From Gammaproteobacteria bacterium (GTDB lineage: Bacteria; Pseudomonadota; Gammaproteobacteria; UBA6186; Azoamicaceae), in contig JABDCL010000001.1 in NCBI GenBank assembly GCA_013288135.1, positions 186,001 through 250,000 on the forward strand: DNA of 64,000 nt, written 5' to 3'. Positions 11,431 to 44,727 of the stretch are shown piece after piece (within the stretch, counting starts at the first letter, position 1; each line of letters opens with the position of its first letter). The position numbers and the translations under genes are program-made. The notes under the pieces were generated by a model. The model did not search any database, was not told the origin of the DNA, and saw nothing but the letters and a program-made list of their open reading frames with translations.

Positions 11431-11438
11431 TTGATCGT

Positions 11439-12324: not shown

Positions 12325-13885
<1,561 letters not shown>

Positions 13886-13889
<4 letters not shown>

Positions 13890-14503: not shown

Positions 14504-14540
14504 AAACTTTACTCCTGTTAGATGAGGGCAACCAACATTT

Positions 14541-22614: not shown

Positions 22615-22723
22615 TAGTTGATTTTGTTAGCTGCATGCATTGACTTAAGGAAACAAATTTTGATAATATGGTAAGCAAATTAAAGACTAATTAAATACTT
22701 AACATCAAAGTTTGGGGGTTCAA

Positions 22724-24961: not shown

Positions 24962-25120
24962 CTTGGGGGACTCTAGATCTTGGAATCAAGATCATTGTGA
25001 TAAGATAATATTAGCATTGTTTATGCCGTATTTCTTGTACGTATTTTTCCCGGACAGACAATTATTTATTTTATTTTAAAATAATCCTTCAATCTAAAAA
25101 GTGATTAGGAGGAAGAATCA

Positions 25121-25930
25121 ATGATGCTATTGCCCTGGAAAACCAAACAAGCTCAATTAATCGAAAAAAATCTAGAAAATGCTTTTATTGCAATGTCCAC
25201 ACAACAAAAACAATATCAAGATAGTAGATACATTTTTTCTAAAATACCTCACCCCGTTTTTAATTGTGTTATCAGAGCAAGAACAACTGAACATGCAGCT
25301 GAAGAAACCATTCAAACCATCCTTCAAGATTATAAAGCACACAACACACCCCACTGCTGGTGGATAACGGAAAATTCTGAGCCCCAAGAAATCTCGAAAC
25401 ATCTAAAAAAATTAGGCTTTCAAAAAGGACCAAATTACAGAGGCATGTATGCAAAATTAAATGATATCAATCTTGATTTTGAAATATCTTCAAAGATCCA
25501 AATTCAAGAGATTACTGAAATTAATACTTTTGATGCCTGGGTTAGGCCTTTAGCAGAAAGTTTCGAGTTTACACCCGATGTTGAAAAAGCATTTTCTAAT
25601 TGTTATCAGGATTTATTTTATCGCGACAAACGTTTTATTAGCTATATCGCTTTTTATGATAATCACCCTGCAGGCGCCACCACTTTGTTTTTAGATAATG
25701 ATTCAGCAGGTTTGTATAATGGAGGCGTTTTTACTCAATTTCGAGATAAAGGAGTTCTGTCACATCTAGGAAGAACCATGTTGTTAGAAGCCAAAAAAAG
25801 AGGAGTAGAAGAAGTGGTTGTTCAAGTAAGTGAAGCTGCCCATAACATGGCGATCAAAGCCGGATTTAAAGAATATATTAATTTTCAGTCTTACTTAAGC
25901 CCTGTTTTTAATAACATATTAAAGTTCTAA
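25121..25930 (+). CDS. GNAT family N-acetyltransferase (copy A)
   Basis: A 269-residue protein with a C-terminal GNAT domain. GAATLFLDNDSAGLYNGGVF is the beta-4 region, TQFRDKGVLSHLGRTMLLEA is the acetyl-CoA-binding helix region (R..G....L), and NMAIKAGFKEYINFQSY is the end motif. The N-terminal half (PWKTKQAQLIEKNLENAF..) is a separate alpha/beta domain, as in fused GNATs. AGGAGG lies 8 bases before the ATG. The substrate is unknown. It is convergent with the lysR gene and nearly identical to the gene at 41583. Confidence 0.8.
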   Translation: MMLLPWKTKQAQLIEKNLENAFIAMSTQQKQYQDSRYIFSKIPHPVFNCVIRARTTEHAAEETIQTILQDYKAHNTPHCWWITENSEPQEISKHLKKLGFQKGPNYRGMYAKLNDINLDFEISSKIQIQEITEINTFDAWVRPLAESFEFTPDVEKAFSNCYQDLFYRDKRFISYIAFYDNHPAGATTLFLDNDSAGLYNGGVFTQFRDKGVLSHLGRTMLLEAKKRGVEEVVVQVSEAAHNMAIKAGFKEYINFQSYLSPVFNNILKF

Positions 25931-25964
25931 ACGGCACATCTCTTAAATTAAAGGGTTGAATTTA

Positions 25965-26897
25965 CTAGCTCATGTATTTTGTATCCAATAAACTATCGCG
26001 TACTTCTTGCTTGTCCAATTTTTCCAAAAGCCAAACTAATATTTCACTATTTGAATCTGTGCGCCATGCTACTTTAAGATGGCCAGTGGTTTTAAGTCGT
26101 TCGACAGTTCGTTCAATCAGTTTGCCATTTTTAAGTAGGTGCTCAATACGATGACGAGGCAAATAACCCACACCTAACCCTTGAACTTGAGCGAGTATTT
26201 TCGCATTCATGTTGGGCACAACAATCACCGATTGACCAGGATAAGTCCCGGAAGATCTGGCAGCGAGATTCATAGAGGTATCAGATATTACAACACTATG
26301 AGCCATCATAAGATCATCCAAAGTTAAGGGATCTGGATAATTAGCCAAAGGGTGATGGGGTGCAAGTGCAAATACAAAGCTGACTGTTCCGAGATTTTTT
26401 TGAGCACAGGGAAGATCAATCGGTGGCTCCCCTGATGCTCCCAAAGCGAGGGTAACCCGATTGTGGGCTAAGGCATCCCAACACCCATTCATGACTTCCC
26501 GATATATCTTAATCGATACTGTGGGAAATATTTCTTGAAAATCCTTAATTAAAGCATACACTCCCTTGCATGAAAGCAAGTCATCGTAGGCAATGCTGAA
26601 TTCTAATTCTTGTCCTTTTTGTACTAAATGCAGATCGGATTCAAGCCGTTCCATTTGCTTTAAAATATGTCGACCCCGTTGCAGTAACAATCGCCCTTCT
26701 TGTGTAAACGTCAATAAATAACCTGATCTATCAAAAACTGGAAATCCTAATAAATTTTCTAATTTATGTACGCTTTGTGTGATAGCTGAAGGTGTGCGAT
26801 GTAAATATTCAGCGGCTTTAGCAAAAGTTCCATGTAATTCAATGGCTTGTAAGATCTGCAAATCCCTAAAATCAATTTTCATTGCTTTAAAGCCCAT
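25965..26897 (-). CDS. LysR-family transcriptional regulator (copy A, intact)
   Basis: A 310-residue regulator. The N-terminal winged helix reads FRDLQILQAIELHGTFAKAA, EYLHRTPSAITQSVHKLENL and LGFPVFDR (about 9-58). The effector-binding domain runs from about 95 to the end. ATG 26882 (MKIDFRDL) is an alternative start. It is divergent from the exported rhodanese gene, with 142 bases between them, and so probably controls it. A second copy at 42427 is broken by a 175-base deletion. Confidence 0.88.
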   Translation of the reverse strand: MGFKAMKIDFRDLQILQAIELHGTFAKAAEYLHRTPSAITQSVHKLENLLGFPVFDRSGYLLTFTQEGRLLLQRGRHILKQMERLESDLHLVQKGQELEFSIAYDDLLSCKGVYALIKDFQEIFPTVSIKIYREVMNGCWDALAHNRVTLALGASGEPPIDLPCAQKNLGTVSFVFALAPHHPLANYPDPLTLDDLMMAHSVVISDTSMNLAARSSGTYPGQSVIVVPNMNAKILAQVQGLGVGYLPRHRIEHLLKNGKLIERTVERLKTTGHLKVAWRTDSNSEILVWLLEKLDKQEVRDSLLDTKYMS

Positions 26898-27039
26898 GCT
26901 TAATTTTAATGATGTTTAGAATATCTTAACATCATAATTAAAATAATTCAATTTCAATTATCTGAAAAATAGTTTATCGTAAATAATCTTGATTTAATTA
27001 AAGTTTTTAAAGTTTATCATGTATTTTAGGAGGCAAACT

Positions 27040-27525
27040 ATGTTAAAAAAACTTACTGTAGGCATCACTATAGCCATTTTTTCAATTCTTATGGGGGTAT
27101 TACCTATGCACACCGTATTAGCTGCTTCAAGCGATAACGCTATACAGGATACAAAAAAAGCAGCTCAATACTTTGAGGATGAGTTAAATTTTAAAACGAA
27201 TCCTTATGGTGTTAAAAATATACTAGATAGTAAAGTTAAAAATGTGACCATCGTGGATGTTCGTGCGGCAAAAGACTATGCAGAAGGACATATTCCTGGC
27301 GCTATCAATGTGCCTTATGAAAAATACAATAGTTTTAATGGTGACGAAACTGAATTTCCAGGCTTAAGGAAAGATGGTTTTAACTATGTTTATTGTTATG
27401 AACTATTATGCAATTTAGGACAAAAAGCGGGTAAAAAATTTGCTGCTGCAGGTTATCCTGTCAAGGAAATTGTCGGTGGCTTCGAATCTTGGAAAGAAAA
27501 AGATTACCCCATTGACCGCTCATAA
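27040..27525 (+). CDS. Exported rhodanese-domain protein (copy A)
   Basis: A 161-residue protein. I use ATG 27040, 6 bases after AGGAGG, which gives a clean signal peptide (MLKKLTVGITIAIFSILMGV, cleavage near VLAAS). The rhodanese domain shows VTIVDVRAAKDYAEGHIPGA, INVPYEKYN, and the active-site loop YCYELLCNLGQKA with a cysteine at the sulfur-carrier position, then VKEIVGGFESWKEKDYPI. It is periplasmic, probably for sulfur or redox chemistry. A near-identical copy is at 43327. Confidence 0.85.
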   Translation: MLKKLTVGITIAIFSILMGVLPMHTVLAASSDNAIQDTKKAAQYFEDELNFKTNPYGVKNILDSKVKNVTIVDVRAAKDYAEGHIPGAINVPYEKYNSFNGDETEFPGLRKDGFNYVYCYELLCNLGQKAGKKFAAAGYPVKEIVGGFESWKEKDYPIDRS

Positions 27526-27560
27526 TTAATCTTAGGTAATTGTATAGACTGAGTAGGCCA

Positions 27561-29147: not shown

Positions 29148-30415
29148 TTAATAAAAGTGAGGATCAACTTTTGACCACTCGGATGCAATTTGGAAAACAA
29201 TCAAGTCATCATAGGTATTACCAATAATCTGCATGCCTAATGGTATCCGTTCAGGAGTTAAGCCAATCGGCACATTCATTACTGGATATTGACCAAGCAT
29301 ATTCCAAGGCCAAGTAAAGGAATAAGTCCAAGTCTCTGCCGAATGAGATTTGCCATTGATTGTTACTACAGTGTTGGTAGAGGTACTACCCATATCGGCA
29401 GTAATATAAGGTGTAGCTAATGTAGGCATAACAATAGCTTTATACCCTCGACTTCTTCAACAATTGCACCTAGAGAACGTAATTTCTCAACAGCTGCCTT
29501 CATAGCTTTCTCAACTGTGATATCTAATGGCAAACCCCATCGTTTCATGGGATCATAGGCAATTCGCCATCCTTTGATATTTTCATATTGTTTTGGGTAC
29601 TCCAACCTCGGTCGCAGAGTGGGGATAGCAGCTGGACTCGGACCCGATATAGCATTTTGAAAAAGATTTATATCTTCAAATGTCCGTGCCAAAGGGCCCG
29701 AACTTTCATATTGAATCAATGAAGAAGGCACTCGACCAAAAGGGGGCTTAAATCCATAAAGCCCCGTTAATGCCGCTGGCACTCGAATAGATCCCCCCAT
29801 ATCTGATCCTGTTGCTAAAGTTGTGAAGCCAGCTGCTAATACTGCTGAGGATCCTCCTGATGAACCTCCTGGAGAATAAATAATGTTCCATGGATTGCGG
29901 GTGGTTCCAAAAAGTCGATTCCAGGTCACAAGATTACAGTAAAATTCTGGTACATTGGTCTGAATGTGCATGATTACACCAGCATTACGAAGAAAATTTG
30001 TCAAACCTGAATCATATTTTGAAGGTTTTGCATCCTTAAAAATTAATGACCCCATCGTGGAACGCCAACCTTTAACATCAACATCATCCTTAATTGCACA
30101 GGTTAAACCTTCAAGAGGTCGAGGGTTGTCCTGTTGATATCGCTTTTCAGATTCTTTTGCTTGTACCAAAGCCTCTTTATAATGTTTTATGGTGATTGCA
30201 TTAATGGAAGGGTTAAGAGCTTCAATACGAGCTATTTGCACTTTTAGAACATCAACCGGAGAGATTTCTTGAGCTCGAAACAAACGTAATAGTTCTGTAG
30301 CAGGTAAAAAACAAACTTCTTCTTGAGTGAGTTTATTCGAAAAAACAGGCTGTACAATTCCCCAAAAAAGTAAAAATACTATCAACGGCTTGATTATCCA
30401 TAGAGTTTTTTGCAT
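29148..30415 (-). pseudogene. Amidase (amidase-signature family), broken by frameshift and deletion
   Basis: The 5' part (ATG 30415, 5 bases after GGAGG, with an export signal) encodes the amidase core. It has AIKDDVDVKG with the catalytic lysine, SPGGSSGGSSAVLAAG with the cis-serine and GSDMGGSIRVPAALTGLYGF with the nucleophile. It goes out of frame after AIVEEVEGIK near 29430. The 3' part, in another frame, starts MPTLATPYIT and ends with NVPIGLTPERIPLGMQIIGN and the usual C-terminus. About 100 residues are missing between them. It lies between the exporter and permease genes of the island operon. Confidence 0.82.
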
Positions 30416-30425
30416 GCTAGCCTCC

Positions 30426-31616
30426 TTAAGAACGGTAAGCTTTTTCTTCATTTAACTTTCCTGCGAAGAAAAAACATACCATTGTCATCATAAATAATAT
30501 GAGTGCTAAGAAACATTGATTTCCCCCATGTATCCCAGAAAAAGCAAAAACCAATAAAGCTACGATTAGCATTTGTATTGCTCCAATAATAGCACCTGAT
30601 GCTCCAGGTATATTCTGCCGAACTAATAAAGCTTTGGCGGTCGCTACTGGAAAAACCAAACCTGTACCCAAATTAAATACTGACATCGAAAAAATAATTA
30701 ATACAGGCTCATTATATTTTAATATTGATGTTAGAATCATCATTCCTGATCCTATTGTCATAATGGAAAGTCCAACCAACATGTTTTTATATGCATTAAC
30801 TTTATTTTTTACATAATAAATAAAAAGACATCCGATAAGAAAAGTGCTGTCTGTTAATAAAAATGTAAGACCAAACTCAAAACTTGACAAACCCATTTGG
30901 TTTTGTAATATGAAAGGACTAACTCCATAATAAATAGTGACACAGGCTAAGGTAAGAGAAGAAATAAGCAAAAACAGCCAAAAGTCTTTTTGTTGCAGTA
31001 TTATGCTATAACTATGATACATGGCTAAAAAAACATTGTTTTTACTTCCTGTTCTTTCGTGAAAATTTGTTTCCGGCATAAAAATAAATAAAACAACCAA
31101 GGTAATTAAACAATATAAAAGAATTGCTAAAAAATTAGCTTGCCAAGAAAACAAAGAAATTAGGTACCCACCAATAATTGGCGATATCATTTGAGTTAAT
31201 ACCGAAATAATCATCACAACTGCTGTGGCGTTAATATAGAAATTACCTTTATAAACATCACTAAGTATAGATTTTGCTATAACGCTATAACAACCTGCAC
31301 CTAATCCTTGTAATAACCTAGCTAACAGCAAGGAATCTATAGAAGATGAAAATAAAGAGAAAATACTCCCAAAGACAAAAATAGTATTCCCCACTAAAAC
31401 CACAATACGTCTACCATATATATCTGATAAAGGACCATAAAAAAGCTGAGAAACTCCTAAACCCAATGTATATAAAACAATAATATTTTGAGCAATGCGG
31501 GGAGATACTGTAAAGTGTTCACTTATATTAGATAATGCAGGAATACAAATTGAATTTGAAAATAAATAAACAGAAACCATCAGGCATGCTATTTGTAAAA
31601 CAAAATTAGTGACCAT
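30426..31616 (-). CDS. Bcr/CflA-type MFS drug exporter
   Basis: A 396-residue twelve-helix MFS efflux protein. SICIPALSNISEHFTVSPRI, GVSQLFYGPLSDIYGRRIVV (motif A) and LARLLQGLGAGCYSVIAKSI are typical of Bcr/CflA multidrug exporters. The C-terminal half keeps GASGAIIGAIQM. It begins 10 bases after the FAD oxidase stop and is the sixth gene of the island operon. The likely role is export of, or self-protection from, the operon's product. Confidence 0.88.
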   Translation of the reverse strand: MVTNFVLQIACLMVSVYLFSNSICIPALSNISEHFTVSPRIAQNIIVLYTLGLGVSQLFYGPLSDIYGRRIVVLVGNTIFVFGSIFSLFSSSIDSLLLARLLQGLGAGCYSVIAKSILSDVYKGNFYINATAVVMIISVLTQMISPIIGGYLISLFSWQANFLAILLYCLITLVVLFIFMPETNFHERTGSKNNVFLAMYHSYSIILQQKDFWLFLLISSLTLACVTIYYGVSPFILQNQMGLSSFEFGLTFLLTDSTFLIGCLFIYYVKNKVNAYKNMLVGLSIMTIGSGMMILTSILKYNEPVLIIFSMSVFNLGTGLVFPVATAKALLVRQNIPGASGAIIGAIQMLIVALLVFAFSGIHGGNQCFLALILFMMTMVCFFFAGKLNEEKAYRS

Positions 31617-31626: not shown

Positions 31627-32706
31627 CTAAAAATTTTCAATTTTAAAAACCGCTTGTTTAGCACATTCAGGAGCTATTTTAAATCCGACACCGCTCCATC
31701 CACTACATATTAACAATCCACTTATCTCAGGTAAAAACTCCAACTTTCCTTCGCAATCCTTAGTATATGCATCTACACCACATCGTCCTCCCACCCAACA
31801 TTCATCATTAATCCATGAAGCAAATTTTGAAGCTACCTGCTTTATTTTTCTATTTACAGTGATCGAAAGAAGTTGATATGAATCATGATCTGGTTGTTCT
31901 CCTACCTCAGTTAATCCTATTAAACATCGACCCCCACCATAATCCCGGCCATATAGCCCTAAAGTTTTATCTGAAAATGTAGGAAATGGTAATACATTTA
32001 TTGGATATTTAAAAAAGGCAGTTTGAATAATTTTTTTTGTAAATATAGGGTCGTTACAACCTATTTTTTCAAGAAATCTGCCTGTCCAAGAACCTGTTGC
32101 AAGTACGACGCAAGGAGCTTCAAAATTTGAATAAGACGATTTTATGCCCGTAATCGTTCCATTCTTTGTTAAAACATCTATAACTTCAACATCTTCTAAA
32201 AAATCCCCTCCCAATTTAACTCCTGCTGACAAATATGCTCTACAAGTTTTGACAGGATCTGCGTAGCCACTATTTTTTTCATAGATTATAATATTATCAT
32301 TGGTAATTGGCATTTTTAAAAAACCAAAACGACTTACGGCTTCTCGACTTGTTAAACATTCTATGTCAAGTCCTAGGTTTTTAATAAGTTTCATATTATC
32401 TTCAATAACTGGTAAATTTTCTTTTAAATCAATGGTAAAGAATCCTGTTTTAACTAAACCACATGAAAAGCCTACTTTTTTTTCAAACTGATTAAACTCT
32501 TCAAAACTTTTTGCTGACAAATTACACAATCTAGAAGAAGAATGTAATAATCTAACAAACCCTCCTGAACTGCCTGTGGCTCCGTTACAAATCCTCTTCT
32601 TTTCTATCAAGAGTACTCGCTTCGATGTAGAACTTGAAAGATAATAAAATATGGCGGCACCAAAAATACCTCCACCGACAATTATTACATCATACTTGTT
32701 TTTCAT
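31627..32706 (-). CDS. FAD-dependent amine oxidase (DAO family), hydrazine-pathway partner
   Basis: A 359-residue DadA/ThiO/sarcosine-oxidase-type flavoprotein. The start is ATG 32706, which overlaps the stop of the upstream gene as ATGA; a longer start would have no flavin fold in front. The dinucleotide motif is VIIVGGGIFGAAI (residues 8-20), followed by RVLLIEKKRICNGATGSSGG, and the C-terminal LLICSGWSGVGFKIAPECAK is the second FAD block. By analogy with Spb39 of the s56-p1 pathway it would oxidise the lysine-glycine hydrazine adduct to release hydrazinoacetate. The context (next to the cupin-MetRS fusion) drives this call; alone it could be any glycine-type oxidase. Confidence 0.85.
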   Translation of the reverse strand: MKNKYDVIIVGGGIFGAAIFYYLSSSTSKRVLLIEKKRICNGATGSSGGFVRLLHSSSRLCNLSAKSFEEFNQFEKKVGFSCGLVKTGFFTIDLKENLPVIEDNMKLIKNLGLDIECLTSREAVSRFGFLKMPITNDNIIIYEKNSGYADPVKTCRAYLSAGVKLGGDFLEDVEVIDVLTKNGTITGIKSSYSNFEAPCVVLATGSWTGRFLEKIGCNDPIFTKKIIQTAFFKYPINVLPFPTFSDKTLGLYGRDYGGGRCLIGLTEVGEQPDHDSYQLLSITVNRKIKQVASKFASWINDECWVGGRCGVDAYTKDCEGKLEFLPEISGLLICSGWSGVGFKIAPECAKQAVFKIENF

Positions 32707-34736
32707 ATTGTTATTTTCTCTTTTCTTACTGTCTCGAAAAGTGCAATACTGATGGGCATAAAAGTACAACTTGATAAATTTTTTATTTCTGTATTCTTTG
32801 CTAACAAACGAACATCTGTTTCCCAATTTATTTTTTTTTTAAACCCCAATGCATTAAACAGTTTTTCAGAAAATTCTGGCATTATTGGTGAGCAAACCAT
32901 TGCATAATATTTTAAAGCTGTTAATTCTAAAACAAGTGTCGTCTGGTATTCTAATTTGCTAAAACTATTGTTAGCAATCAAGTAACTTCCTGTCAACGAA
33001 AGTTTTTTGACCCTAGAAACCAACTCTTTAAGTAATTTTATTATATTAGCCGGAGAAAAAAATGGTGGCTCATACGCTTGTGTAACCTCAATCAGAAATT
33101 TTTGCAAATATCTTACAAATTCTTCATGTTCTACTACCCATTCTCCACCATCTGGACAAATACCATTAAAATCAGAATTTATTCTTATTGCAAGATTACT
33201 AATCCAACCTGATAGTTCATCAGCTAAATCTGTATTAACTAATTTAACAAATTCTAAATAGGTAAATTGAGTTCTTTCAATTTCTGGCCGTGTTGCAGAT
33301 AAATAATACCGTAAAACATCACTCGTTACTTTTTTAATTATATCTTTTGCCCATACTGCATGACCACGACTTGTTGAAAATTTAAGTTTATCAAATAAAT
33401 AGAATTCATTATAAATAATTTCATCAGGTAATTTAATTGATTCATCAAACGCCAAATATAAGGCTGTCATTATTATCGTATAGAAATATGTATTATCAAA
33501 ACCAAAGAATAAGGTGATTTTTGAATTAGGATCTTTTAAAAAGTTTTTCCAATTCTCCTGTTCATTGACCACTTTATGAATTAAAAATAAATACCCTGGC
33601 GCCATTTCACACCACGAACAAAGCTTTTGCTCCTCAAATCCCTCAAAGGGTGCTGTGATTCCCCAATGACTTTGATGCGTAATAAGCAAATCGGGTAGTT
33701 TTTTATCCAAGGCAGTTCTAACCAATGCTCGAATATGCGCGGGTAAATTTATCCTCTCTAGATATTGTTTTATTTTTTGATGATAATTTTGTAAAGGTAA
33801 ATAAACTTGTTTTGTTTCTTTTAATATAGGTTTCTTTTTACAAAATTTACAAAATGAGTCTACCACATCTACACAAAGATTAGGTAAACCACAAGTTTCA
33901 CACGACCCACCTCCACAGGGTGAATTACAATGGGGACATAATCCACTCATGTGTGCCTCAAATAACCAAATATTACATTGTTCACAATATGGTTGAGAGC
34001 AAATTTTTGTTTTAATTATTGAGGAATCAAAAAGCTTTCTAAAAAATTCTACGACAAAATCAGTATAATCTTTATCATGTAAAGGACGGTAGAACAAATC
34101 TGGGTCAGCGTTATATTGCTTTAAAACGGACTGGATGTTCGATGAAAAATGATCAGCTACTAGATCAGAAGAAATCTGCATTTGTTTTGCCTTAAGTTCA
34201 ACATAGCTCTGATTGTCATCACTCCCTGAAAAGTATAAAACTTCATCCCCTCTTTGAAGATATGAACGTTTTAATATATCGGCAGAAAGGTAGGGACCAG
34301 AAATATGCCCTAAATGTAAATCTCCATTTGGCGTCGGGGGAGGGGAAAAAATTAATCTCTTAATGCCTGTTTTTTTAGAAAAATAATTTCTTTTAGATAT
34401 TACGGCTCCCTCGGAAAATGCCCACCACAAAGATGTGAATATTAATTTTTCATGTGCTTCTGTGTTTTTTAGAGTATGATAATCACCTGGCTCAAGATAT
34501 ATGATATCACCTAAGCCAACTTCTATTTTTTCATTTTCACCTTCCAATATTCCTTCCCCACTGATAATTACAAAACTCTCATGATCATGATGAGCATGTT
34601 TTCTTGTTGATTCTCCAGGTTTAAGGATCCCAAGCATAGAACCAAAGTGTACATTTTCACTGGGAACATCAATAAACTTACCCTGAATGCCATATATAGA
34701 TTCTATTGAATTAATCTCAAATTTTTCAAGCTTCAT
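32703..34736 (-). CDS. Hydrazine synthetase-like fusion: Zn-cupin + methionyl-tRNA-synthetase-like domain
   Basis: 677 residues. The N-terminal cupin (about 25-105) has both motifs: G41-x5-H47-x-H49-x3-E53-x6-G60, and GDIIYLEPGDYHTLKN with H87. From about 126 a class I synthetase domain resembles MetRS: PPPTPNGDLHLGH (HIGH-like, 141-144), a cysteine-rich zinc region (C246-C299) and a KMSKS-like KFSTSRG (452-458), ending with a helical domain. This is the architecture of Spb40-type enzymes, which activate an amino acid and join it to an N-hydroxylated amine, forming an N-N bond. It overlaps the N-hydroxylase gene by 11 bases and the FAD oxidase by 4. It is not a housekeeping metG. Confidence 0.93.
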   Translation of the reverse strand: MKLEKFEINSIESIYGIQGKFIDVPSENVHFGSMLGILKPGESTRKHAHHDHESFVIISGEGILEGENEKIEVGLGDIIYLEPGDYHTLKNTEAHEKLIFTSLWWAFSEGAVISKRNYFSKKTGIKRLIFSPPPTPNGDLHLGHISGPYLSADILKRSYLQRGDEVLYFSGSDDNQSYVELKAKQMQISSDLVADHFSSNIQSVLKQYNADPDLFYRPLHDKDYTDFVVEFFRKLFDSSIIKTKICSQPYCEQCNIWLFEAHMSGLCPHCNSPCGGGSCETCGLPNLCVDVVDSFCKFCKKKPILKETKQVYLPLQNYHQKIKQYLERINLPAHIRALVRTALDKKLPDLLITHQSHWGITAPFEGFEEQKLCSWCEMAPGYLFLIHKVVNEQENWKNFLKDPNSKITLFFGFDNTYFYTIIMTALYLAFDESIKLPDEIIYNEFYLFDKLKFSTSRGHAVWAKDIIKKVTSDVLRYYLSATRPEIERTQFTYLEFVKLVNTDLADELSGWISNLAIRINSDFNGICPDGGEWVVEHEEFVRYLQKFLIEVTQAYEPPFFSPANIIKLLKELVSRVKKLSLTGSYLIANNSFSKLEYQTTLVLELTALKYYAMVCSPIMPEFSEKLFNALGFKKKINWETDVRLLAKNTEIKNLSSCTFMPISIALFETVRKEKITI

Positions 34737-36069
34737 TTAATTCCTTCCTTACAATTTTTAAATTGTTTTTAATTGAACAACCATCATTCAAAATGGCTTC
34801 CAAAATTAATTCTGCCCTAGTGGACATGATCGCTAATGTGGAATCACTGGGTCCATGGGTGCTCTCACAGTAACCTTGTAAATAGACATTTGCATGCATT
34901 GATTTTTCTTTCTGAATTTGATAATTCTTAGAAACCAGATATTCTCCATCATCATTTTTTTTTAAATGCTCATTCAATTCATCTAAGAGTTTTGAATAAT
35001 TATCTTGTACATATCCTGTAGCCAATATAACTGCATCTCCTTTCATGGTTTCTGTGGATTCATTATATATATCTTTAAAATCAACCTGAACAATTGAGTT
35101 TGTCAGCATTATATTTTCAAGATTTAACCCAGGACAAATTTTCAATCTTTCCTTTCCCTGAAATAAATCAAGATATTGCTCTTTAAAAAGATCGTTAAGT
35201 AAATTCAAATCTACGACAGAATAATTTGATGTTCGTAAATCATGAAGTGCTTTAATCTTCAATGGATTACTTAACTTATAAAAACTATCTACAGCAGATT
35301 GATGGTAAACTAGATTTACAAAAGGGCTATTATCAATTGCATGCAATGAATAGTTTCGAAAGCACAAAGAGACTCTTGCATTAGGGTATTGTTTAAGCAA
35401 ATAGTATGCAGCTTCCCCAGCACTTTGCCCAGAACCAATAACAATAAAATGATAGTTTTCAAATGATTGTACAAAACGATTGGGTATTTTTTTTAGCAAT
35501 GAAGAAGTATGAACAATTCTATCATCTTCAAAATCATTAACACAAGGAGGGAAATAAGGTTCTCCACCAACTGATATAATAACATTTTCGGCAATACAGC
35601 TCTTTGTATTTTTATGTTTTTTATCAACGTAATTTATTTTTAGTTTTTTTATAATTCGATGATTTTCTTCCCACACTGGGGAAATTGATTTTACTTTGCA
35701 TCCGAATTTTGTAATATGAGATAATCTTTCACATACCCATGTCAAATAATCATGATATTCAACTCTACTTGGATAAAATGTTCTCAAGTTAATAAATTGA
35801 TCTAAACGATTCTTACTTTTCAAATAGTTTAAAAAAGTAAATGGACTCTGCGGGTTTCTTACCGTGGCCAAATCTCTAAAAAATGGCACTTGTAATTGCA
35901 TGCCTGGTATGAGCATCCCAGGATGCCATTGAAAATTACGGTTACTTTCAAGAAACAAACAATCAAAATTATCTTTGATTTTTAAATTTCTTTCTTCAAT
36001 TGCTGTTGCCAACGCTAAATTAGAAGGTCCAAGACCAACGCCTACAGCCTTTAATGGTTTCTCAATCAT
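34726..36069 (-). CDS. Flavin-dependent lysine/ornithine N-hydroxylase (SidA/IucD/PvdA family)
   Basis: 447 residues from ATG 36069, which has AGGAGA 7 bases upstream; a GTG at 36105 would overlap the previous gene. It has the FAD motif VGVGLGPSNLALA (9-21), FQWHPGMLIPGMQLQVPFFR and DLATVRNPQSPFTFLNYL typical of the family, NADPH-binding IGSGQSAGEAAYYL (211-224) and the late ATGY box (VILATGY). The enzyme hydroxylates the side-chain amine of lysine or ornithine with O2 and NADPH. Directly upstream of the cupin-MetRS gene, it most likely makes N6-hydroxylysine (Spb38 role) rather than a siderophore; no siderophore synthetase is present. Confidence 0.92.
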   Translation of the reverse strand: MIEKPLKAVGVGLGPSNLALATAIEERNLKIKDNFDCLFLESNRNFQWHPGMLIPGMQLQVPFFRDLATVRNPQSPFTFLNYLKSKNRLDQFINLRTFYPSRVEYHDYLTWVCERLSHITKFGCKVKSISPVWEENHRIIKKLKINYVDKKHKNTKSCIAENVIISVGGEPYFPPCVNDFEDDRIVHTSSLLKKIPNRFVQSFENYHFIVIGSGQSAGEAAYYLLKQYPNARVSLCFRNYSLHAIDNSPFVNLVYHQSAVDSFYKLSNPLKIKALHDLRTSNYSVVDLNLLNDLFKEQYLDLFQGKERLKICPGLNLENIMLTNSIVQVDFKDIYNESTETMKGDAVILATGYVQDNYSKLLDELNEHLKKNDDGEYLVSKNYQIQKEKSMHANVYLQGYCESTHGPSDSTLAIMSTRAELILEAILNDGCSIKNNLKIVRKELNEA

Positions 36070-36097: not shown

Positions 36098-37339
36098 CTA
36101 AGCACACAATCTGTTTTCAGTTAGTTTTGGTTGCAATGTTAACATTACATTTTTAAGCACTCTTACCAAATCATAAATTTGATCTTCTGTATGATTTGCG
36201 GCTATACATATCCGTAATTGTGCTTTGTTTTTTGGAACAATTGGAAAAAAAACCACTGATACAAAAAATCCATTTATCAAAACCTGTTTACATAATTCCA
36301 CAGCGTTTTCCTCATTTCCAATCATAACCATTCTGATTGGACTAAACGGTAACGTTAGTTCCATTAATGAATCATATAAAGCAACATTCTGACGTAATTT
36401 ATCTTGTAGTTTTAGTACAGTTCCATCTCTATGTAGTTGAATAGAAGATAAACATGCCTTCGCAACTGAAAAATCTAATGCAGCAGAAAATGCGTATATT
36501 TGTCCATAAGTCCTAATGATACTTTCCTGAAAAACGCTGGGAACTAAAACGCCTCCTCCATTACATCCAAAGCCCTTAGAAAGACAAAAACTAATAAATA
36601 AATTTTCGGGTATTCCGTAGGGTAATTGGCTTAATACAGAGCCTTGCCCATATTCTCCAAAAATGGAAGTCCCATGTGCATCATCTAAATACATATAAAA
36701 CTCCAATTCATTAGACATTTTTAGAATTTCCTGAATAGGACATAACCCTCCCATTGAATAAATCCCATCAGCAACATAGACAGCAACTTCTCCTTTCATC
36801 TTGGCCATTACTACCGCTTCTCTCAGTGCATTTAAATCATTGTGAGCAATCACGGTAATTTCTGCCTCAGTTGCTAAAATTGGTTTTAGATATTGCATAG
36901 ATGAATGAGCATATTTATCAAAAACCATTCTTACCTTTGGAGGATTCTTTGGATTTAAAAGCATACCACTTGCAATCAAGGGGAGTACCGACATATTTGT
37001 TGTGGTTACCGATGGAAAAGTAATTGCCCTCCCACCAAATAACACTGATAATTCTTCTTCCAACTTTTGTAATGGCTCGATTGAAAATCTAGATCGAGCA
37101 CAACAAAAATTTACTCCCCAACTGTTATCTAGAGATTTACTTGCTGCAACTATGTTCGGGTGTAAATCTATTCCCAAATAGGAGCAATTAATAAATTCGA
37201 CGACTTCAGAGTTATTGGGCATAATAACTTTTTTCCCATTTCTTCCTCGTATGGTTACTTGCATCAAATCTTTTACTACTGCATTTTTATAATGCTTATC
37301 AGAGTATTCATACATAAAATTGGTATTTCTATGACTCAT
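36098..37339 (-). CDS. Alpha-oxoamine synthase (BioF/KBL-like PLP enzyme)
   Basis: 413 residues, PLP fold type I. Visible are GVNFCCARSRFSIEPLQKLE, DKYAHSSM with the stacking His (H145), YLDDAHGTSIFGEYGQG (cofactor Asp/His) and SFCLSKGFGCNGGG with the Schiff-base lysine (K255). The family condenses an amino acid with an acyl-thioester and loses CO2 to give an alpha-aminoketone. GGGAGG lies 5 bases before the ATG, 12 bases after the GNAT stop. No other biotin gene is nearby, and the enzyme lies in the hydrazine operon, so a role in natural-product assembly is inferred. Confidence 0.87.
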   Translation of the reverse strand: MSHRNTNFMYEYSDKHYKNAVVKDLMQVTIRGRNGKKVIMPNNSEVVEFINCSYLGIDLHPNIVAASKSLDNSWGVNFCCARSRFSIEPLQKLEEELSVLFGGRAITFPSVTTTNMSVLPLIASGMLLNPKNPPKVRMVFDKYAHSSMQYLKPILATEAEITVIAHNDLNALREAVVMAKMKGEVAVYVADGIYSMGGLCPIQEILKMSNELEFYMYLDDAHGTSIFGEYGQGSVLSQLPYGIPENLFISFCLSKGFGCNGGGVLVPSVFQESIIRTYGQIYAFSAALDFSVAKACLSSIQLHRDGTVLKLQDKLRQNVALYDSLMELTLPFSPIRMVMIGNEENAVELCKQVLINGFFVSVVFFPIVPKNKAQLRICIAANHTEDQIYDLVRVLKNVMLTLQPKLTENRLCA

Positions 37340-37351: not shown

Positions 37352-37819
37352 TCATAACATTTCAATCGGAACACACAGTGAATAATTAATAAAATTTGTA
37401 TCCTTAATATACCCTTCAGATTCATATAGTTTTTGACCTGCAAAATTAGATGCTTCCGTAGAAAGATAAATTTTTTCTATACCTTCCTGCTTTGCGTACT
37501 CTCTTGCCGAGCGCACCAATAATCTCCCTATATTTCTTTTTCTATATTCAATATCAACGTATAAATCACTGAGAGTTAATATTCTTTGTGCCCCAATCGA
37601 GCCCCAACCCAAATATAACTGTGTAAAACCGATTCCAGGAAAATCTGGGGTTTTTTCATCTAATGCTAGAAATATAATTGATTCACTATTTCTTAATCTC
37701 TCCGTGATAAATTTTTCAGCCCTTAATATGTCAGATGATTGTTGATAAAACATTCTATAGGCATTAAATAAGGGTATTATTTTTCCAATGTGTCCTAAAT
37801 TTGCTCTGATAATTTTCAT
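37352..37819 (-). CDS. GNAT family N-acetyltransferase (first gene of the hydrazine operon)
   Basis: 155 residues. It has the GNAT core: LTLSDLYVDIEYRKRNIGRL then LVRSAREYAKQEGI (acetyl-CoA helix), followed by IYLSTEASNFAGQKLYESEG. AAGGGG lies about 10 bases before the ATG. It is 12 bases before the oxoamine synthase gene. In this setting it may acylate the hydrazine or amine product (tailoring or detoxification). The substrate cannot be read from sequence. Confidence 0.85.
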   Translation of the reverse strand: MKIIRANLGHIGKIIPLFNAYRMFYQQSSDILRAEKFITERLRNSESIIFLALDEKTPDFPGIGFTQLYLGWGSIGAQRILTLSDLYVDIEYRKRNIGRLLVRSAREYAKQEGIEKIYLSTEASNFAGQKLYESEGYIKDTNFINYSLCVPIEML

Positions 37820-37983: not shown

Positions 37984-38071
37984 CCAAAGTTCAAAAAAAC
38001 GTTTTATCATTTTATTGTGATGGTTATACAAGTGTTGAATATACGTTTGGAAAAAGAGAGAGGAAATGGCT

Positions 38072-38440
38072 ATGAAATTTACATCACTTGCCTTATTGAA
38101 CTTTCATGAAGAGGTTTTAAATAATAGTGGAAGTTATATCAATTCTGTTGAAATGCAGAATCAGATAGATAAATTAACTAAAGAAGGCTTATCCAATAGA
38201 GAAATCAGTGTATTAAGTTTTTGGATAAGTGGTTATTCCATCAAAGAAACAGCTAAAATATTGCATGCTAGCTTGAGAACAATTGAGGATTATCGGTCTA
38301 AAATCAAAGATAAACTGCACATAAAGGATAAAAAGAATCTATATAAAATCATCCGACATTTAGATTCTTTAGAGTTTTGCTTTGATTTTGCCATTCAGCA
38401 ATGCGAGACTTTAAAATTTTCTTATCCGAGTATATCGTGA
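38072..38440 (+). CDS. LuxR-type HTH transcriptional regulator (short)
   Basis: 122 residues, starting at ATG 38072, which has AGAGAGGA at a good distance; the ATG 6 bases earlier is too close. The C-terminal half is a GerE/LuxR helix-turn-helix: KEGLSNREISVLSFWISGYS, IKETAKILHASLRTIEDYRS and KIKDKLHIKDKKNLYKII. The N-terminal 40 residues are too short for an autoinducer or receiver domain. It is divergent from the hydrazine operon and a likely controller of it. A second LuxR-type gene lies at the other side of the island. Confidence 0.85.
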   Translation: MKFTSLALLNFHEEVLNNSGSYINSVEMQNQIDKLTKEGLSNREISVLSFWISGYSIKETAKILHASLRTIEDYRSKIKDKLHIKDKKNLYKIIRHLDSLEFCFDFAIQQCETLKFSYPSIS

Positions 38441-39257: not shown

Positions 39258-40490
39258 TTAGCTAATTTTCTTAGATTGGTAATAGACAGACAATATAAGT
39301 AATGTAGTGATAAAAGCACAAACTAATAAATATAAAAAAGGAGAAACTACATTCTGTGTAATTTGAAATAGCTTCAAACTAATGCTAGGTGTAGTGCCCC
39401 CAAATAAACACATTCCTAGATTATAGCTTAATGAAGTTCCAAGATAACGAATTTCTTTGGGAAACAAAGTACTCATAATATAAGCACCGGGCGCAATAAA
39501 GGTGGATAAAATTACTGCTACCAATATCTCTACACATAGAATATTAAATAAAGAAGAAGAAGTTAAAAGATGAAATAAGGAATAGGATAATACTGCCAAT
39601 AAAATGGAGGCAATAAGCATCATTTTTAGATGACCCCATTTATCTGACAGCCATCCCATAAGAGGTAAAAAGATCATGTAAACAAAAAGACCAAAGGTTG
39701 TACACGCAGTAATTGAGGCTTGATCAATAGTGGTTACTTTAGGTAAAAAGCTATTAGGAAAAATAAAGTGCCCATAGAAAGTAGTACCAAGTAACATCCC
39801 TATGGAGGCAACTTGCAGAATAATTAAAGGATATTTGAGCAATGCTAATAATTCTTTAAAAATGTTATTTGTAGTTCTTGTGATAGGATAAGCATCAAAA
39901 GTTGTTTTTCGTAGATAGTAACCTACAAATCCAGCAAGTCCCCCAATTAAAAATAGCACCCGCCAAGATAAAGCATTTTCTGACATTACTGCAATACTGA
40001 TGGAAGAAGCTGAAAGCCAACCAAGTACCCCAGCTGAAATAATGGTGCCTGTAACAAAAGCAGGATACCGTGCTTGATATCGTTGTAAATGTTCTGAGGC
40101 AAATATCAATGAACCGCTAAATTCTCCACCCATGCAAAGACCTTGCAAAATTCTTAGTATACTTAAAATAATAGGTGCTAATATACCAATTTCAGCATAA
40201 ATGGGGATAAGTCCAATTAAAGCTGTTGCGATACCAGTACCCAAAATAGAATAGGAAAGTGCATACTTTCTACCATAACAGTCACCTATATATCCAAACA
40301 AAATGGCACCAATAGGCCTTGCAATAAATCCCATCGCAAAAATATTAAAAGCAAAAAATAACTGAGTAATTGAATCACTTTCAGGAAAAAAGAGCTTGGC
40401 TAAAATAGGTGTTAAAAATGCATAAAGGGAAAAATCATAAAATTCTAGGATATTTCCAATACTTGCTGCAATATAAATCTTTTTAGCCAC
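39258..40490 (-). CDS. MFS transporter, metabolite:H+ symporter family
   Basis: About 410 residues. I favour GTG 40490 (MAKKIYIAASIGNILEFYDF), overlapping the regulator stop by 8 bases; ATG 40526 is the alternative. Family motifs are IARPIGAILFGYIGDCYGRK and LQGLCMGGEFSGSLIFASEH, with twelve helices. It is distinct from the Bcr/CflA exporter at the other end of the island. It is co-transcribed with the LuxR-type regulator upstream, so it may be controlled by the signal that regulator senses. The substrate is unknown (organic acids, betaines or amino acids in relatives). Confidence 0.82.
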   Translation of the reverse strand: MAKKIYIAASIGNILEFYDFSLYAFLTPILAKLFFPESDSITQLFFAFNIFAMGFIARPIGAILFGYIGDCYGRKYALSYSILGTGIATALIGLIPIYAEIGILAPIILSILRILQGLCMGGEFSGSLIFASEHLQRYQARYPAFVTGTIISAGVLGWLSASSISIAVMSENALSWRVLFLIGGLAGFVGYYLRKTTFDAYPITRTTNNIFKELLALLKYPLIILQVASIGMLLGTTFYGHFIFPNSFLPKVTTIDQASITACTTFGLFVYMIFLPLMGWLSDKWGHLKMMLIASILLAVLSYSLFHLLTSSSLFNILCVEILVAVILSTFIAPGAYIMSTLFPKEIRYLGTSLSYNLGMCLFGGTTPSISLKLFQITQNVVSPFLYLLVCAFITTLLILSVYYQSKKIS

Positions 40491-41220
40491 CTTTAAGTTC
40501 CCAAACAATAAGATCAAATAAATCATGCCATAAATGAAACATACTTTCTTCCTGCATCAGTTCGATTAGGTGATTTTTGTTATGACATTGAAGCTTCATC
40601 ATGGCATTTCTAATATATTCCTCAACAGTTCTATAAGATATTTTGAGTTTTAATGCAGTCTTCTTTGCAGTATAACCATTTAATAGAAAACACAAGCATT
40701 CTATTTCCCTCCCTGTCAATTTCTTATCAAATTTCGGCAAATTCCCTAATTTTTCAATTAATAGATTTTTATCGTTATAAAGGATCTTTTGCTGCTCATA
40801 TTTTTCTCTCGCCAAAAAAAATCCCAGTTGTTCATAAATATTCAGCATATTCAAATTACAAAAATAACTGATAATTTCCTTATTATCATTGAAACAATAA
40901 ATTGAAGTCCCAGAATAAGTTATTTTTTTATGGGTGGGATTAATTAATTGAAAAGTATTATCATGGACACCAGTACAATGCCATTCACTAATAACAGTAT
41001 TCCCAACAATGGCAAGATTAACGTCAAAAACATGAATATCTGAAAATGCGTTTAACCAATTTAAGGTTGTGTTTTGCATGGATTCTCTACCAATTTTTTT
41101 TCCAAGCGGACTGTTGATGATGGCATTGGTAGAGAAAATTTGATGTGCTTCATCTAAATGTTTATCTTTAGAATTCCACACTTCATTTATGTAACCATAA
41201 GTTAATGAATGCAAATCCAT
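40483..41220 (-). CDS. LuxR-type regulator with NTF2/SnoaL-like N-terminal domain
   Basis: 245 residues. Residues 1-125 look like a SnoaL/NTF2-like ligand pocket (YINEVWNSKDKHLDEAHQIF, then SPLGKKIGRESMQ, and VISEWHCTGVHDN). Residues about 165-230 are a LuxR HTH (LTGREIECLCFLLNGYTAKK, TALKLKISYRTVEEYIRNAM, MKLQCHNKNHLIELM). No phosphorylation site or acyl-homoserine-lactone domain is seen, so it probably binds a small molecule. It overlaps the MFS gene behind it. Confidence 0.82.
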   Translation of the reverse strand: MDLHSLTYGYINEVWNSKDKHLDEAHQIFSTNAIINSPLGKKIGRESMQNTTLNWLNAFSDIHVFDVNLAIVGNTVISEWHCTGVHDNTFQLINPTHKKITYSGTSIYCFNDNKEIISYFCNLNMLNIYEQLGFFLAREKYEQQKILYNDKNLLIEKLGNLPKFDKKLTGREIECLCFLLNGYTAKKTALKLKISYRTVEEYIRNAMMKLQCHNKNHLIELMQEESMFHLWHDLFDLIVWELKGG

Positions 41221-41404: not shown

Positions 41405-41582
41405 ATGATTTAATAATTTATAGTAAACTTCGGATTGGTTATAAAACTAAAATACTTTGTTAAGAATACCTTTTTGAGGTGGCAATATTCTTTATTATTT
41501 GTACGTATTTTTCCCGGACAGACAATTACTTATCTTATTTTAAAATAACCTTATTATCAAAAATGATTAGGAGGAATATTCA

Positions 41583-42374
41583 ATGATGCTATTACCTTGG
41601 AAAACTAAACAAGCTCAATTAATCGAAAAAAATTTGGAAAATGCTTTTATTGCAATGTCCTCACAACAAAAACAATATCAAGAAACTAGATATATTTTTT
41701 CTAAAATACCTCACCCAGTTTTTAATTGTGTTATCAGAGCCAGAACAACAGAATGTGAGCTAGAAAAAACCATTCAAACTATTCTTCAAGACTATAAAGA
41801 ACATAATACACCTCATTGTTGGTGGATAACGGAAAATTCTGAGCCCCAAGAAATTTCGAAATATTTGAAAAAACTAGGCTTTCAAAAAGGACCAAATTAC
41901 AGAGGAATGCATGCAGAAATGAAAGATATCAATCTTGATTTTGAAATATCTTCAAGGATCCACATTGAACAAATTACCGAAATTAATACCTTTGATGCCT
42001 GGGTTAGGCCTTTAGCAGAAAGTTTTGAGTTTACACCCAATGTTGAAAAAGCATTTTCTAATTGTTATCAGGATTTATTTAATCGCGACAAACGTTTTAT
42101 TAATTATATCGCTTTTTATGATAATCACCCTGCGGGCGCCACCACTTTGTTTTTAGATAATGATTCGACAGGTTTGTATAATGGAGGCGTTTTTACTCAA
42201 TTTCGAGATAAAGGAGTTCTGTCACATTTAGGGAAAACTATGTTATTAGAAGCAAAAAAAAGAGGAGTAGAAGAAGTGGTTGTTCAAGTAAATGAAGCTG
42301 CCCATAACATGGCAATCAAAGCTGGATTTAAAGAATATATTAATTTTCAGTCTTACTTAAGCCCTATTTCTTAA
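41583..42374 (+). CDS. GNAT family N-acetyltransferase (copy B)
   Basis: A 263-residue near-copy of the protein at 25121, with the same acetyl-CoA region (TQFRDKGVLSHLGKTMLLEA) and end motif. It differs at scattered positions (for example SSQQKQYQET for STQQKQYQDS) and has a shorter C-terminus (LSPIS). AGGAGG and leader are conserved. The frame is intact, and the scattered differences look mostly conservative, so both copies are probably functional. Confidence 0.8.
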   Translation: MMLLPWKTKQAQLIEKNLENAFIAMSSQQKQYQETRYIFSKIPHPVFNCVIRARTTECELEKTIQTILQDYKEHNTPHCWWITENSEPQEISKYLKKLGFQKGPNYRGMHAEMKDINLDFEISSRIHIEQITEINTFDAWVRPLAESFEFTPNVEKAFSNCYQDLFNRDKRFINYIAFYDNHPAGATTLFLDNDSTGLYNGGVFTQFRDKGVLSHLGKTMLLEAKKRGVEEVVVQVNEAAHNMAIKAGFKEYINFQSYLSPIS

Positions 42375-42426
42375 TGACATATTAAAGTCCTAAACCGCAC
42401 ATCTTTAAATTAAAGGGTTGAATTTA

Positions 42427-43184
42427 CTAGCTCATGTATTTTGTATCCAATAAACTATCGCGTACTTCTTGTTTGTCCAATTTTTCCAAAAGCCAAGCTA
42501 ATATTTCACTATTTGAATCTGTACGCCATGCTGCTTTAAGATGCGCTTTAGTTTTAAGACGTTCGACAGTTCGTTCAATCAGTTTACCATTTTTAAGTAG
42601 GTGTTCAATACGATGACGAGGCAAATAACCTACTCCCAATCCTTTAACTTGAGCTAGAATTTTCGCATTCATATTTGGCACAAGAATCACCGATTGCCCG
42701 GGATAAGTTCCAGAAGATCTGGCGGCGAGATTCGTAGAGGTATCGGATACCACAATACTATGAGCCATAATGAGATCATCCAACGTTAAGGGATCTGGAT
42801 AATTAGCCAAGGGATGATGGGGTGCAAGTGCAAATACAAAGCTGACTGTTCCGAGCATGAAAGCAAGTCATCGTAGGCAATGCTGAATTCTAATTCTTGT
42901 CCTTTTTGTACTAAATGCAGATCAGATTCAAGCCGTTCCATTTGCTTTAAAATGTGTCGCCCCCGTTGCAATAACAATCGCCCTTCTTGAGTAAACGTCA
43001 GTAAATAACCTGATCTATCGAAAACTGGAAATCCTAATAAATTCTCTAGTTTATGTACGCTTTGTGTGATGGCTGAGGGTGTTCGATGTAAATATTCAGC
43101 AGCTTTAGCAAAAGTCCCATGTAATTCAATGGATTGTAAGATTTGAAGATCTCTGAAATCAATTTTCATCGCTTTAAAGCCCAT
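42427..43184 (-). pseudogene. LysR-family regulator (copy B), disrupted by a 175-bp deletion
   Basis: The DNA-binding N-terminus is intact (MGFKAMKIDFRDLQILQSIE onwards). After YDDLLSC the sequence corresponding to 26394-26568 of copy A is missing, which shifts the frame and ends the protein about 20 codons later. The C-terminal effector domain continues in another frame (LGTVSFVFALAPHHPL...). A free HTH-only protein of 132 residues could still be made and might bind the same operators as copy A. Confidence 0.88.
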
Positions 43185-43326
43185 GCTTAATTTTAATGAT
43201 GTTTAGAATATCTTAACATCATAATTAAAATAATTCAATTTCAATTATTTAAAAATTAGCTTATTGTAAATAATCTTGATTTAATTAAAGTTTTTAGAAT
43301 TTATCATGTATTTTAGGAGGCAAACT

Positions 43327-43812
43327 ATGTTAAAAAAACTTATTGCAAGCATCACTACAGCCATTTTTTCAATTCTTATGGGGGTATTACCTATGCACAC
43401 CGCATTAGCAGCTTCAAACAACAACACTATACAGGATACAAAAAGAGCAGCTCAATACTTTGAGGATGAGTTAAATTTTAAAACTAATCCTTATGGTGTT
43501 AAAAGTATGCTAGATGGTAAAGTTAAAAATGTTACCATCGTGGATGTTCGTGCAGCAAAAGACTATGCAGAAGGACATATTCCCGGCGCTATCAATGTGC
43601 CTTATGAAAAATACAATAGTTTTAATGGGGATGAAACTGAATTTCCTGGCTTAAGGAAAGATGGTTTTAACTATGTTTATTGTTATGAACTATTATGCAA
43701 TTTAGGACAAAAGGCTGGGAAAAAATTTGCTGCTGCAGGTTATCCTGTCAAAGAAATTGTCGGTGGCTTCGCAGCTTGGAAAGAGAAAGATTACCCCATT
43801 GACCGTTCATAA
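43327..43812 (+). CDS. Exported rhodanese-domain protein (copy B)
   Basis: 161 residues, near-identical to the protein at 27040. The start is ATG 43327, 6 bases after AGGAGG, with a signal peptide (MLKKLIASITTAIFSILMGV). The rhodanese core IVDVRAAKDYAEGHIPGAIN and active-site loop YCYELLCNLGQKA are unchanged. It is followed by a complete hairpin terminator at 43828-43866. Confidence 0.85.
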   Translation: MLKKLIASITTAIFSILMGVLPMHTALAASNNNTIQDTKRAAQYFEDELNFKTNPYGVKSMLDGKVKNVTIVDVRAAKDYAEGHIPGAINVPYEKYNSFNGDETEFPGLRKDGFNYVYCYELLCNLGQKAGKKFAAAGYPVKEIVGGFAAWKEKDYPIDRS

Positions 43813-43827
43813 TTAATCTTCAATAAT

Positions 43828-43866
43828 TGTATAGACTGAGAAAATTCCATCCTCTCAGTCTATACA
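43828..43866 (+). terminator. Hairpin terminator after rhodanese copy B
   Basis: TGTATAGACTGAG at 43828-43840 pairs perfectly with CTCAGTCTATACA at 43854-43866 (13-bp stem, 13-base loop), followed by A/T-rich sequence. In copy A only the left arm survives. Confidence 0.7.
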
Positions 43867-43959: not shown

Positions 43960-44727
43960 ATGAAACAAGATCAACAAATCATTGAAATTTTCCATTTACT
44001 TTTTCTAAAATCTTTAGAAAAGAAGATCGATAAATCATTATATTCTTTAAAAGGTGGATGTAACCTTCGATTTTTTTTTAAAAGTATCCGGTATTCAGAA
44101 GATATCGATTTTGATGTAATGACCATAGCTAAAGATACCTTACGGAAAAATATCAATGTCATCCTAAAAGGACCTTCTTTTCAAAAAATTCTCTCTTCTC
44201 AAGGAATAGAAATAGCAAATTTTTCAGAGCCAAAACAAACGGAAACAACACAACGTTGGAAATTGGGACTTATACGATTAGATTTAAATCGAAATCTTTA
44301 CACAAAAATAGAGTTCTCACGAAGAAAAATTGATGAAGGTTTGATCTTTGAACCCGTAGATAACCAAATTCTCCAAACTTATCATTTACAACCGGTACTT
44401 TGTAATCATTATATAAAAGAAACTGCTTTTGTCCAAAAAGTGAATGCACTCATCCATCGAACGGAAACTCAAGCCCGAGATATATTCGATATAAAGCTTT
44501 TGTTGGATTGCCAGCCTGATTTATCTAAGATAAAAACCCAGATTGAATTACATAAACTCGATCTTTCACGCGCTATCGAACATGCTCTCTCGATTGGATA
44601 TTCAGAATTTAAAGGTCAAGTTGTCTCCTTTCTTTTAACTGAATATCAAGATTATTATAATTCTGAAAAAATATGGAATTCTATCCTAGATGAAGTAATT
44701 CACATTCTAGAGCAATTGCAAGCATGA
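43960..44727 (+). CDS. abiEii: AbiEii/AbiGii-type nucleotidyltransferase toxin
   Basis: 255 residues, DUF1814 family. YSLKGGCNLRFFFKSIRYSE then DIDFDV is the nucleotidyltransferase GG/S...DxD site. IHRTETQARDIFDIKLLLD is the conserved later block. Type IV toxins of this family add nucleotides to tRNA ends or otherwise block translation and can give abortive phage defence. Here the toxin gene comes first and overlaps the antitoxin gene by 4 bases, the reverse of the classical abiEi-abiEii order. Confidence 0.85.
   Translation: MKQDQQIIEIFHLLFLKSLEKKIDKSLYSLKGGCNLRFFFKSIRYSEDIDFDVMTIAKDTLRKNINVILKGPSFQKILSSQGIEIANFSEPKQTETTQRWKLGLIRLDLNRNLYTKIEFSRRKIDEGLIFEPVDNQILQTYHLQPVLCNHYIKETAFVQKVNALIHRTETQARDIFDIKLLLDCQPDLSKIKTQIELHKLDLSRAIEHALSIGYSEFKGQVVSFLLTEYQDYYNSEKIWNSILDEVIHILEQLQA

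Follow-up and report, generated by a model that had tools for sequence, protein, structure and literature searches.

N–N bond-forming enzymes are scarce and sought after as biocatalysts. A 64,000-nucleotide stretch of a gammaproteobacterial contig (the window) carries three overlapping genes that an earlier note, made from the letters alone, had read as such a system: a side-chain amine N-hydroxylase, a fusion of a cupin with a methionyl-tRNA synthetase (MetRS)-like domain, and an FAD oxidase. We asked whether these genes encode a hydrazine-forming pathway, what it might make, and how widely it is distributed.

Open frames and Pfam matches confirmed that the three genes are real, overlap and lie where the note had placed them, but the gene unit it had drawn was too small. 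The cluster consists of six genes on the minus strand, in the order GNAT-AOS-NMO-fusion-DAO-MFS, running from 37819 down to 30426. A GNAT acetyltransferase comes first (37352..37819, 155 aa), followed by a PLP-dependent protein of alpha-oxoamine-synthase fold (AOS; 36098..37339, 413 aa) that scores above the cut-off of NCBIfam PRK07505, a SidA/MbtG-like flavin N-hydroxylase (NMO; 34726..36069 from its ATG start, with a GTG-started frame reaching 36105), the cupin-MetRS fusion of putative hydrazine-synthetase type (32703..34736, 677 aa, cupin at about 1–110 and MetRS-like domain at about 123–662), a Por10-like DAO-type FAD oxidase (31627..32706, 359 aa from an inner ATG, 399 aa from an upstream TTG) and, as the last conserved gene, a Bcr/CflA-type MFS exporter (30426..31616). 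The NMO and fusion genes overlap by 11 bases, the fusion and DAO genes by 4, and the remaining gaps measure 10, 12 and 28 bases; this tight cluster is likely an operon. A promoter scan stayed at chance level (41 sites, 39.8 expected), nine terminator-like sites were found where 3.5 were expected, none of them listed directly 3′ of the MFS stop, and an Rfam search of window positions 24000–64000 returned two tRNAs and nothing else. Two LuxR-type HTH proteins are encoded nearby (38066–38440 and 40483–41220), one with an N-terminal SnoaL-like domain; in their place, two related loci described below (L003 and L004) have a LysR-like gene divergent from AOS (Pfam was run on the one in L003).

In Pfam, the fusion matches tRNA-synt_1g (272 bits) and Cupin_2 (45 bits), the NMO matches Lys_Orn_oxgnase (322 bits) and the oxidase matches DAO (152 bits); the NMO gene adjoins the fusion gene, as in MetRS-cupin hydrazine synthetase sets. 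The cupin, HIGH-like and KMSKS-like motifs reported by the earlier note are present far beyond chance, with HLGH at 141–144 and KFSTS at 452–456. The note had allowed that the cupin residues might prove absent on alignment; the HxHxxxE...H set is complete, and H47, H49, E53 and H87, including the Glu, are invariant in all 40 aligned sequences, that of the window among them (PMC8664883 gives their counterparts in PyrN). A structure comparison with the modelled fusion, also suggested by the note, gave as best match the MetRS-cupin hydrazine synthetase PyrN (9l8v), with the solved structures 9vq4, 9vqj and 9vr2 scoring alike; the structure-alignment rows (VIA-align) cover fusion residues 122–675, so the cupin was tested by sequence and the MetRS-like domain by structure as well. 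That domain is nearer to PyrN than to true MetRS and has the KMSKS lysine, and the order cupin then MetRS-like, the metal and catalytic residues and this lysine are common to PyrN, Spb40, Por11 and the window protein. A chance match of motifs was considered and is ruled out by the Pfam scores, the invariant cupin residues and the structure match. The fusion is very likely a hydrazine-synthetase-type enzyme, predicted to form an N–N bond. One database protein (P0001, from a 7971-base source) has G where the window has R217 in the alignment, though it is listed as 100% identical.

We next consider the substrate pocket. Comparison positions were chosen here by alignment to MetRS and PyrN; the review PMC11705231 mentions eight specificity residues for cupin/MetRS enzymes. 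The 107 rows compared comprise 14 from the window's clade, 49 of PEM type, 40 others and four MetRS; the PEM-type rows include azaserine and N-nitroglycine producers and were selected by residues 376–378, so those three columns are uninformative. Residue 373 is C in 12 of the 14 window-clade rows, and all 14 have S or T at 374, Y at 382 and Y at 419; the 49 PEM-type rows have, without exception, W, V or A, F and H at these positions. Among the 40 other rows, 419 is H in 29 and Y in eight. The window's own pocket has C373, S374 and C376 around W375, together with Y419, where the PEM type has H and PyrN has R. In the HMMER alignment, PyrN further differs at 375 (A, against W in the window) and at 381 (R, against G). 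The amino acid substrate of PyrN is glutamate. With 373, 374, 382 and 419 differing from the PEM type and 375, 381 and 419 from PyrN, the pocket resembles neither that of PyrN nor that of the glycine/lysine-type enzymes.

The earlier note had proposed a phylogeny of the fusion as a check. The tree of 107 rows (the window, 80 loci, 22 of the 120 proteins listed and four MetRS, with L003 entering as its longer frame only) sets the window in a clade of 14 members (SH-aLRT 100), placed in neither the Por11 nor the NngM clade, and carries long-branch and composition warnings. By BLASTP the fusion is nearly equally close to Por11 (347 bits) and NngM (351 bits).

The two flavoproteins point more clearly to one known set. 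Here the Por9, Por10 and Por11 positions were assigned to proteins of P. orientalis (L038) from gene order and strain name, NngKLM to S. noursei (L034) and the azaserine clusters to S. fragilis (L032) and G. harbinensis (L039) from the organism, and the Spb side is represented by rows from azaserine and N-nitroglycine producers. The NMO rows number 76, from the window and those of the 80 loci with an extractable NMO frame. The Asn of an N-Y-S site occurs in 20 of them, including the window and the Por9-position protein, and is missing from the other 56, among them the azaserine and N-nitroglycine producers (S-D-G-I-S); in six of the 20 Asn-type rows, that of the window among them, R replaces a K found in SidA and MbtG. 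The best solved relative of the NMO is MbtG, a lysine enzyme. BLASTP gives 233 bits to the Por9-position protein vs 135 to the NngK-position protein for the NMO, and 112 bits to the Por10-position protein vs 36 to the NngL-position protein for the DAO, with identities to the P. orientalis proteins of 33% and 26%, respectively. The DAO motifs GxxxRxxH and G[FY]K (GFK in the window) are common to the seven rows shown of the window's side, and SAGxHFP and GYRLAP to all five shown of the other (Spb39/NngL) side.

In the trees of both proteins, which carry long-branch and composition warnings, the window and P. orientalis fall in one clade with SH-aLRT 100, of 19 rows for the NMO (after removal of three rows over 560 aa) and 18 for the DAO. 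The first DAO set, of 41 rows, was left after dropping frames over 450 aa and second matches per locus; for the tree, 23 rows were added from a second search, five of the 64, of at least 480 aa, were dropped, and some long frames were trimmed ahead of the FAD motif. Moving the window row to the base of the Spb side was not rejected by AU tests for the NMO (p = 0.443) or the DAO (p = 0.106, 41-row set); in the test given with the DAO result, moving the three Por rows was rejected (p = 0.009). By sequence, then, the NMO and DAO appear to be of the Por9/Por10 type and not of the Spb38/39 kind, with a deep attachment on the Spb side possible; the NMO is predicted to hydroxylate a side-chain amine and the DAO to cleave a C–N bond of the hydrazine intermediate.

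What this implies for the product depends on how the known sets act. According to the review PMC11705231, L-DABA is the substrate of Apy11, compound L-28 (N5-hydroxy-ornithine) is reported for Por9, which we read as ornithine hydroxylation, Por11 couples glycine with N-hydroxy-ornithine or -DABA, and Apy10 cuts the C-alpha–N bond, leaving a side-chain hydrazine, whereas Spb39 releases hydrazinoacetate; section 15 of that source gives no cleavage site for Por10. The nng genes of S. noursei make hydrazinoacetate (PMC13274452). Apy9–11, of actinopyridazinone, were compared with the window proteins through their description in PMC11705231. Given Por-type flavoproteins and the difference between Apy10 and Spb39, we lean towards an omega-hydrazino amino acid rather than hydrazinoacetate as the DAO product, by analogy and sequence type.

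The cluster differs from the known sets in its AOS. P. orientalis resembles the window in the NMO Asn site and the DAO motifs, but its order is NMO-DAO-fusion and its 21.8-kb locus has no AOS match, where the window has AOS-NMO-fusion-DAO. Spb38/39/40, NngKLM and the azaserine loci share the three enzyme classes, but their NMO/DAO sequence types and pocket are unlike those of the window, and these loci have no AOS match. The closest solved structure to the AOS is Alb29, an alpha-oxoamine synthase of albogrisin biosynthesis, and both the fold (modelled) and the PLP residues are present; in the window this enzyme is instead tied to a hydrazine-synthetase cluster. AOS and fusion occur together in 11 of the 14 clade members (three read directly, eight matched by contigs of equal length). 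The GNAT is less constant: it has matches in four of the 80 loci, one of them strong, with 40% identity to the GNAT portion of a fused GNAT-SDR protein from a Legionellaceae MAG (L060), and no match in L003 or L004. Since DobB, a GNAT of another pathway, succinylates hydrazinoacetate (PMC13061610), a hydrazine-acylating role is possible for the window's GNAT, which by this analogy may acylate the hydrazine. The L060 cluster (3011–15058) is itself a different hydrazine-synthetase cluster, encoding the GNAT-SDR fusion, NMO, DAO, DHDPS-like, HMGL-like and HAD proteins, a fusion, an amine oxidase and a second DAO-domain protein.

The genomic setting suggests acquisition. Direct repeats of about 2.4 kb each, containing GNAT-LysR-rhodanese genes, bracket a 14-kb island (left copy 25029..27553, right copy 41493..43840); they are 91.5–93.9% identical, and the right copy lacks 174 bases inside LysR, which breaks its frame. 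It is as if the island had arrived by recombination through a diverged copy of the repeat block. The six cluster genes have GC contents of 0.310–0.345; 13 further genes of the window were sampled from beyond the island, repeat copies counted in, and 10 of these have at least 0.36. The earlier note's Legionellales-like host is plausible by sequence: the genome's own MetRS has Candidatus Berkiella aquae as nearest genus-named relative (65%, nearer matches among the best 120 reaching 74%), and its RpoB shares 74% identity with the RpoB of the L060 MAG. The host likely lives inside cells. The genome is 54% complete, so its own inventory is partial. Beside the right repeat lies an AbiEii/AbiEi-type toxin-antitoxin pair (43960–45338), with a second AbiEii-like gene at 58349–59017, and near the island a small stand-alone cupin of 103 aa (45335–45646) has a weak Cupin_2 match below cut-off.

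The nearest clusters are found in other symbionts. Candidatus Paracaedibacter symbiosus (L003), a cytoplasmic symbiont of Acanthamoeba (PMC11909080), has AOS, NMO, fusion, DAO and MFS in the window's order at 80, 68, 65–68, 67 and 66% identity. An alphaproteobacterial MAG (L004) has AOS, NMO and fusion, 81, 70 and 67% identical, before its contig ends. For RpoB, the window genome shares 56% identity with L003 and 57% with L004, so similarity is higher in the cluster than between the genomes; with five genes in one order in a distantly related symbiont, it has likely been shared horizontally between unrelated symbionts. The matching genes of L003 show no GC contrast (0.349–0.389 vs 0.374 for the locus). 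Named AOS-linked members are Paracaedibacter, the alphaproteobacterial MAG, a Rickettsiaceae MAG and a Holosporales MAG. The distribution is patchy: the fusion (E 1e-60) was found in one of 11 genomes from the window's order, which all belong to a single family, and the AOS (E 1e-90 or 1e-100) in one of 369 genomes sampled from the window's class, one of 42 from the order of P. symbiosus and one of three from that of L004, each hit being already known. The earlier note knew the system from actinomycetes; relatives in Bacillota, Acidobacteriota and Alpha-, Beta- and Gammaproteobacteria do not support an essentially actinomycete system, and the family is widespread in bacteria (PMC8664883). The note's remark on different tailoring genes stands, the neighbours differing from those in the actinomycete clusters looked at. 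Among the matches listed, chiefly outside subscription journals, no paper dealt with hydrazine synthetases in protist endosymbionts.

Taken together, we think it probable that the cluster, likely a horizontally spread operon, makes and exports a hydrazine-derived small molecule, as predicted from sequence and models. Pfam, conserved residues, pocket comparison and structure match all favour the N–N cassette of the earlier note, but the lysine-plus-glycine route to hydrazinoacetate that it attached to the cassette does not hold as a default: the NMO site, the DAO motifs and the pocket argue against it. An Spb38/40/39-type route, with lysine N6-hydroxylation, glycine coupling and oxidative release of hydrazinoacetate, is unlikely, even though the three enzyme classes are identical, the best solved NMO relative acts on lysine, the AU tests are compatible with a deep attachment on the Spb side and the fusion is equally near NngM and Por11; the window lacks SAGxHFP/GYRLAP and the S-D-G-I-S site, and its DAO scores 36 bits to the NngL-position protein. 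A stronger competitor, though still the less probable course, is that the N–N trio acts as predicted while the AOS makes a separate block, such as a glutamate-derived aminoketone, to be attached at a later step or to condense chemically with the hydrazine. Alb29 takes L-glutamate with acyl-CoAs (PMC11906848 and PMC10230504). Of 391 genomes sampled from the S. noursei order, two have relatives of the AOS, at loci where the rest of the cluster has no match, so a hydrazine need not be its substrate. Against this, Pfam assigned none of the six genes to a ligase, NRPS or carrier protein that could join two blocks, and within the unit no protein is better conserved than the AOS (80–81%). At these two loci (L112, L113) the window-type AOS lies near an NDP-sugar epimerase-type gene with no N–N protein match, and in L113 also near a DAO-domain protein, a short-chain dehydrogenase and a UDP-glucose dehydrogenase.

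The HIGH and KMSKS-like motifs of its MetRS-like domain could also suit a modified MetRS (a paralogue, resistance copy or regulator) that forms no N–N bond, but we regard this as highly improbable. The fusion falls below the cut-off of each NCBIfam-listed MetRS model; the genome carries its own MetRS besides; and L15, Y17, P259 and H304 of that enzyme, which we take to be its methionine-pocket residues, are replaced in the fusion by P133, T135, A379 and Y419. A column that is presumably the anticodon-recognising Trp of MetRS is W in four of four MetRS, in seven of 103 fusion-type rows and not in the window. On these four grounds a housekeeping or duplicate MetRS was rejected as well. The fused cupin and the adjoining NMO likewise speak against a MetRS role. 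A decaying cassette that gives this strain no product seems improbable too, if less so: a neighbouring amidase gene and the right-hand LysR copy are broken, and the fusion frame is split in L003, but the window has all six frames open, with conserved catalytic-type residues in both the cupin and the AOS. The amidase gene (29148–30451) is broken in two frames, with about 100 profile positions between the matched parts. In Paracaedibacter the fusion lies in two overlapping frames (L003 10001–12039) and the longest NMO frame is short, so that copy may be decaying or mis-sequenced.

In the favoured reading, a predicted hydrazine-forming and exporting cluster, the NMO would act first, on ornithine, diaminobutyrate or lysine, hydroxylating the side-chain amine of this diamino acid. 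Another amino acid, activated as its adenylate by the MetRS-like domain, would be transferred by that domain to the oxygen of the hydroxylamine. The resulting ester would be rearranged by the zinc cupin to form the N–N bond, with E53 as key residue, as shown for PyrN. The DAO would then cut one C–N bond, more likely in the Apy10-like way that leaves an omega-hydrazino amino acid, the AOS would condense either this product or a different amino acid with an acyl-CoA, releasing CO2 and giving an alpha-aminoketone, and the MFS protein would export the product. This amounts to a known kind of hydrazine synthetase in a distinct, AOS-linked variant; the AOS link and the Paracaedibacter match are new relative to the earlier note. 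The distinct pocket and the AOS of most clade members make a new substrate pair likely and perhaps a new hydrazine-to-ring route. More tentatively, and with the odds against so specific a scheme, the omega-hydrazino amino acid and acyl-CoA may yield the alpha-aminoketone and then, by ring closure of its hydrazine onto the ketone, a cyclic hydrazone (a tetrahydropyridazine if from diaminobutyrate), in a module that intracellular protist symbionts exchange without being related. Were that so, bacteria inside protists would swap a complete small-molecule pathway across distant lineages, and secretion by symbionts into protist hosts would become a directly testable question. The window also encodes 717- and 749-aa proteins without a Pfam match (19622–21775 and 22712–24961), a diverged tandem pair whose DNA is 65% alike over 1.7 kb.
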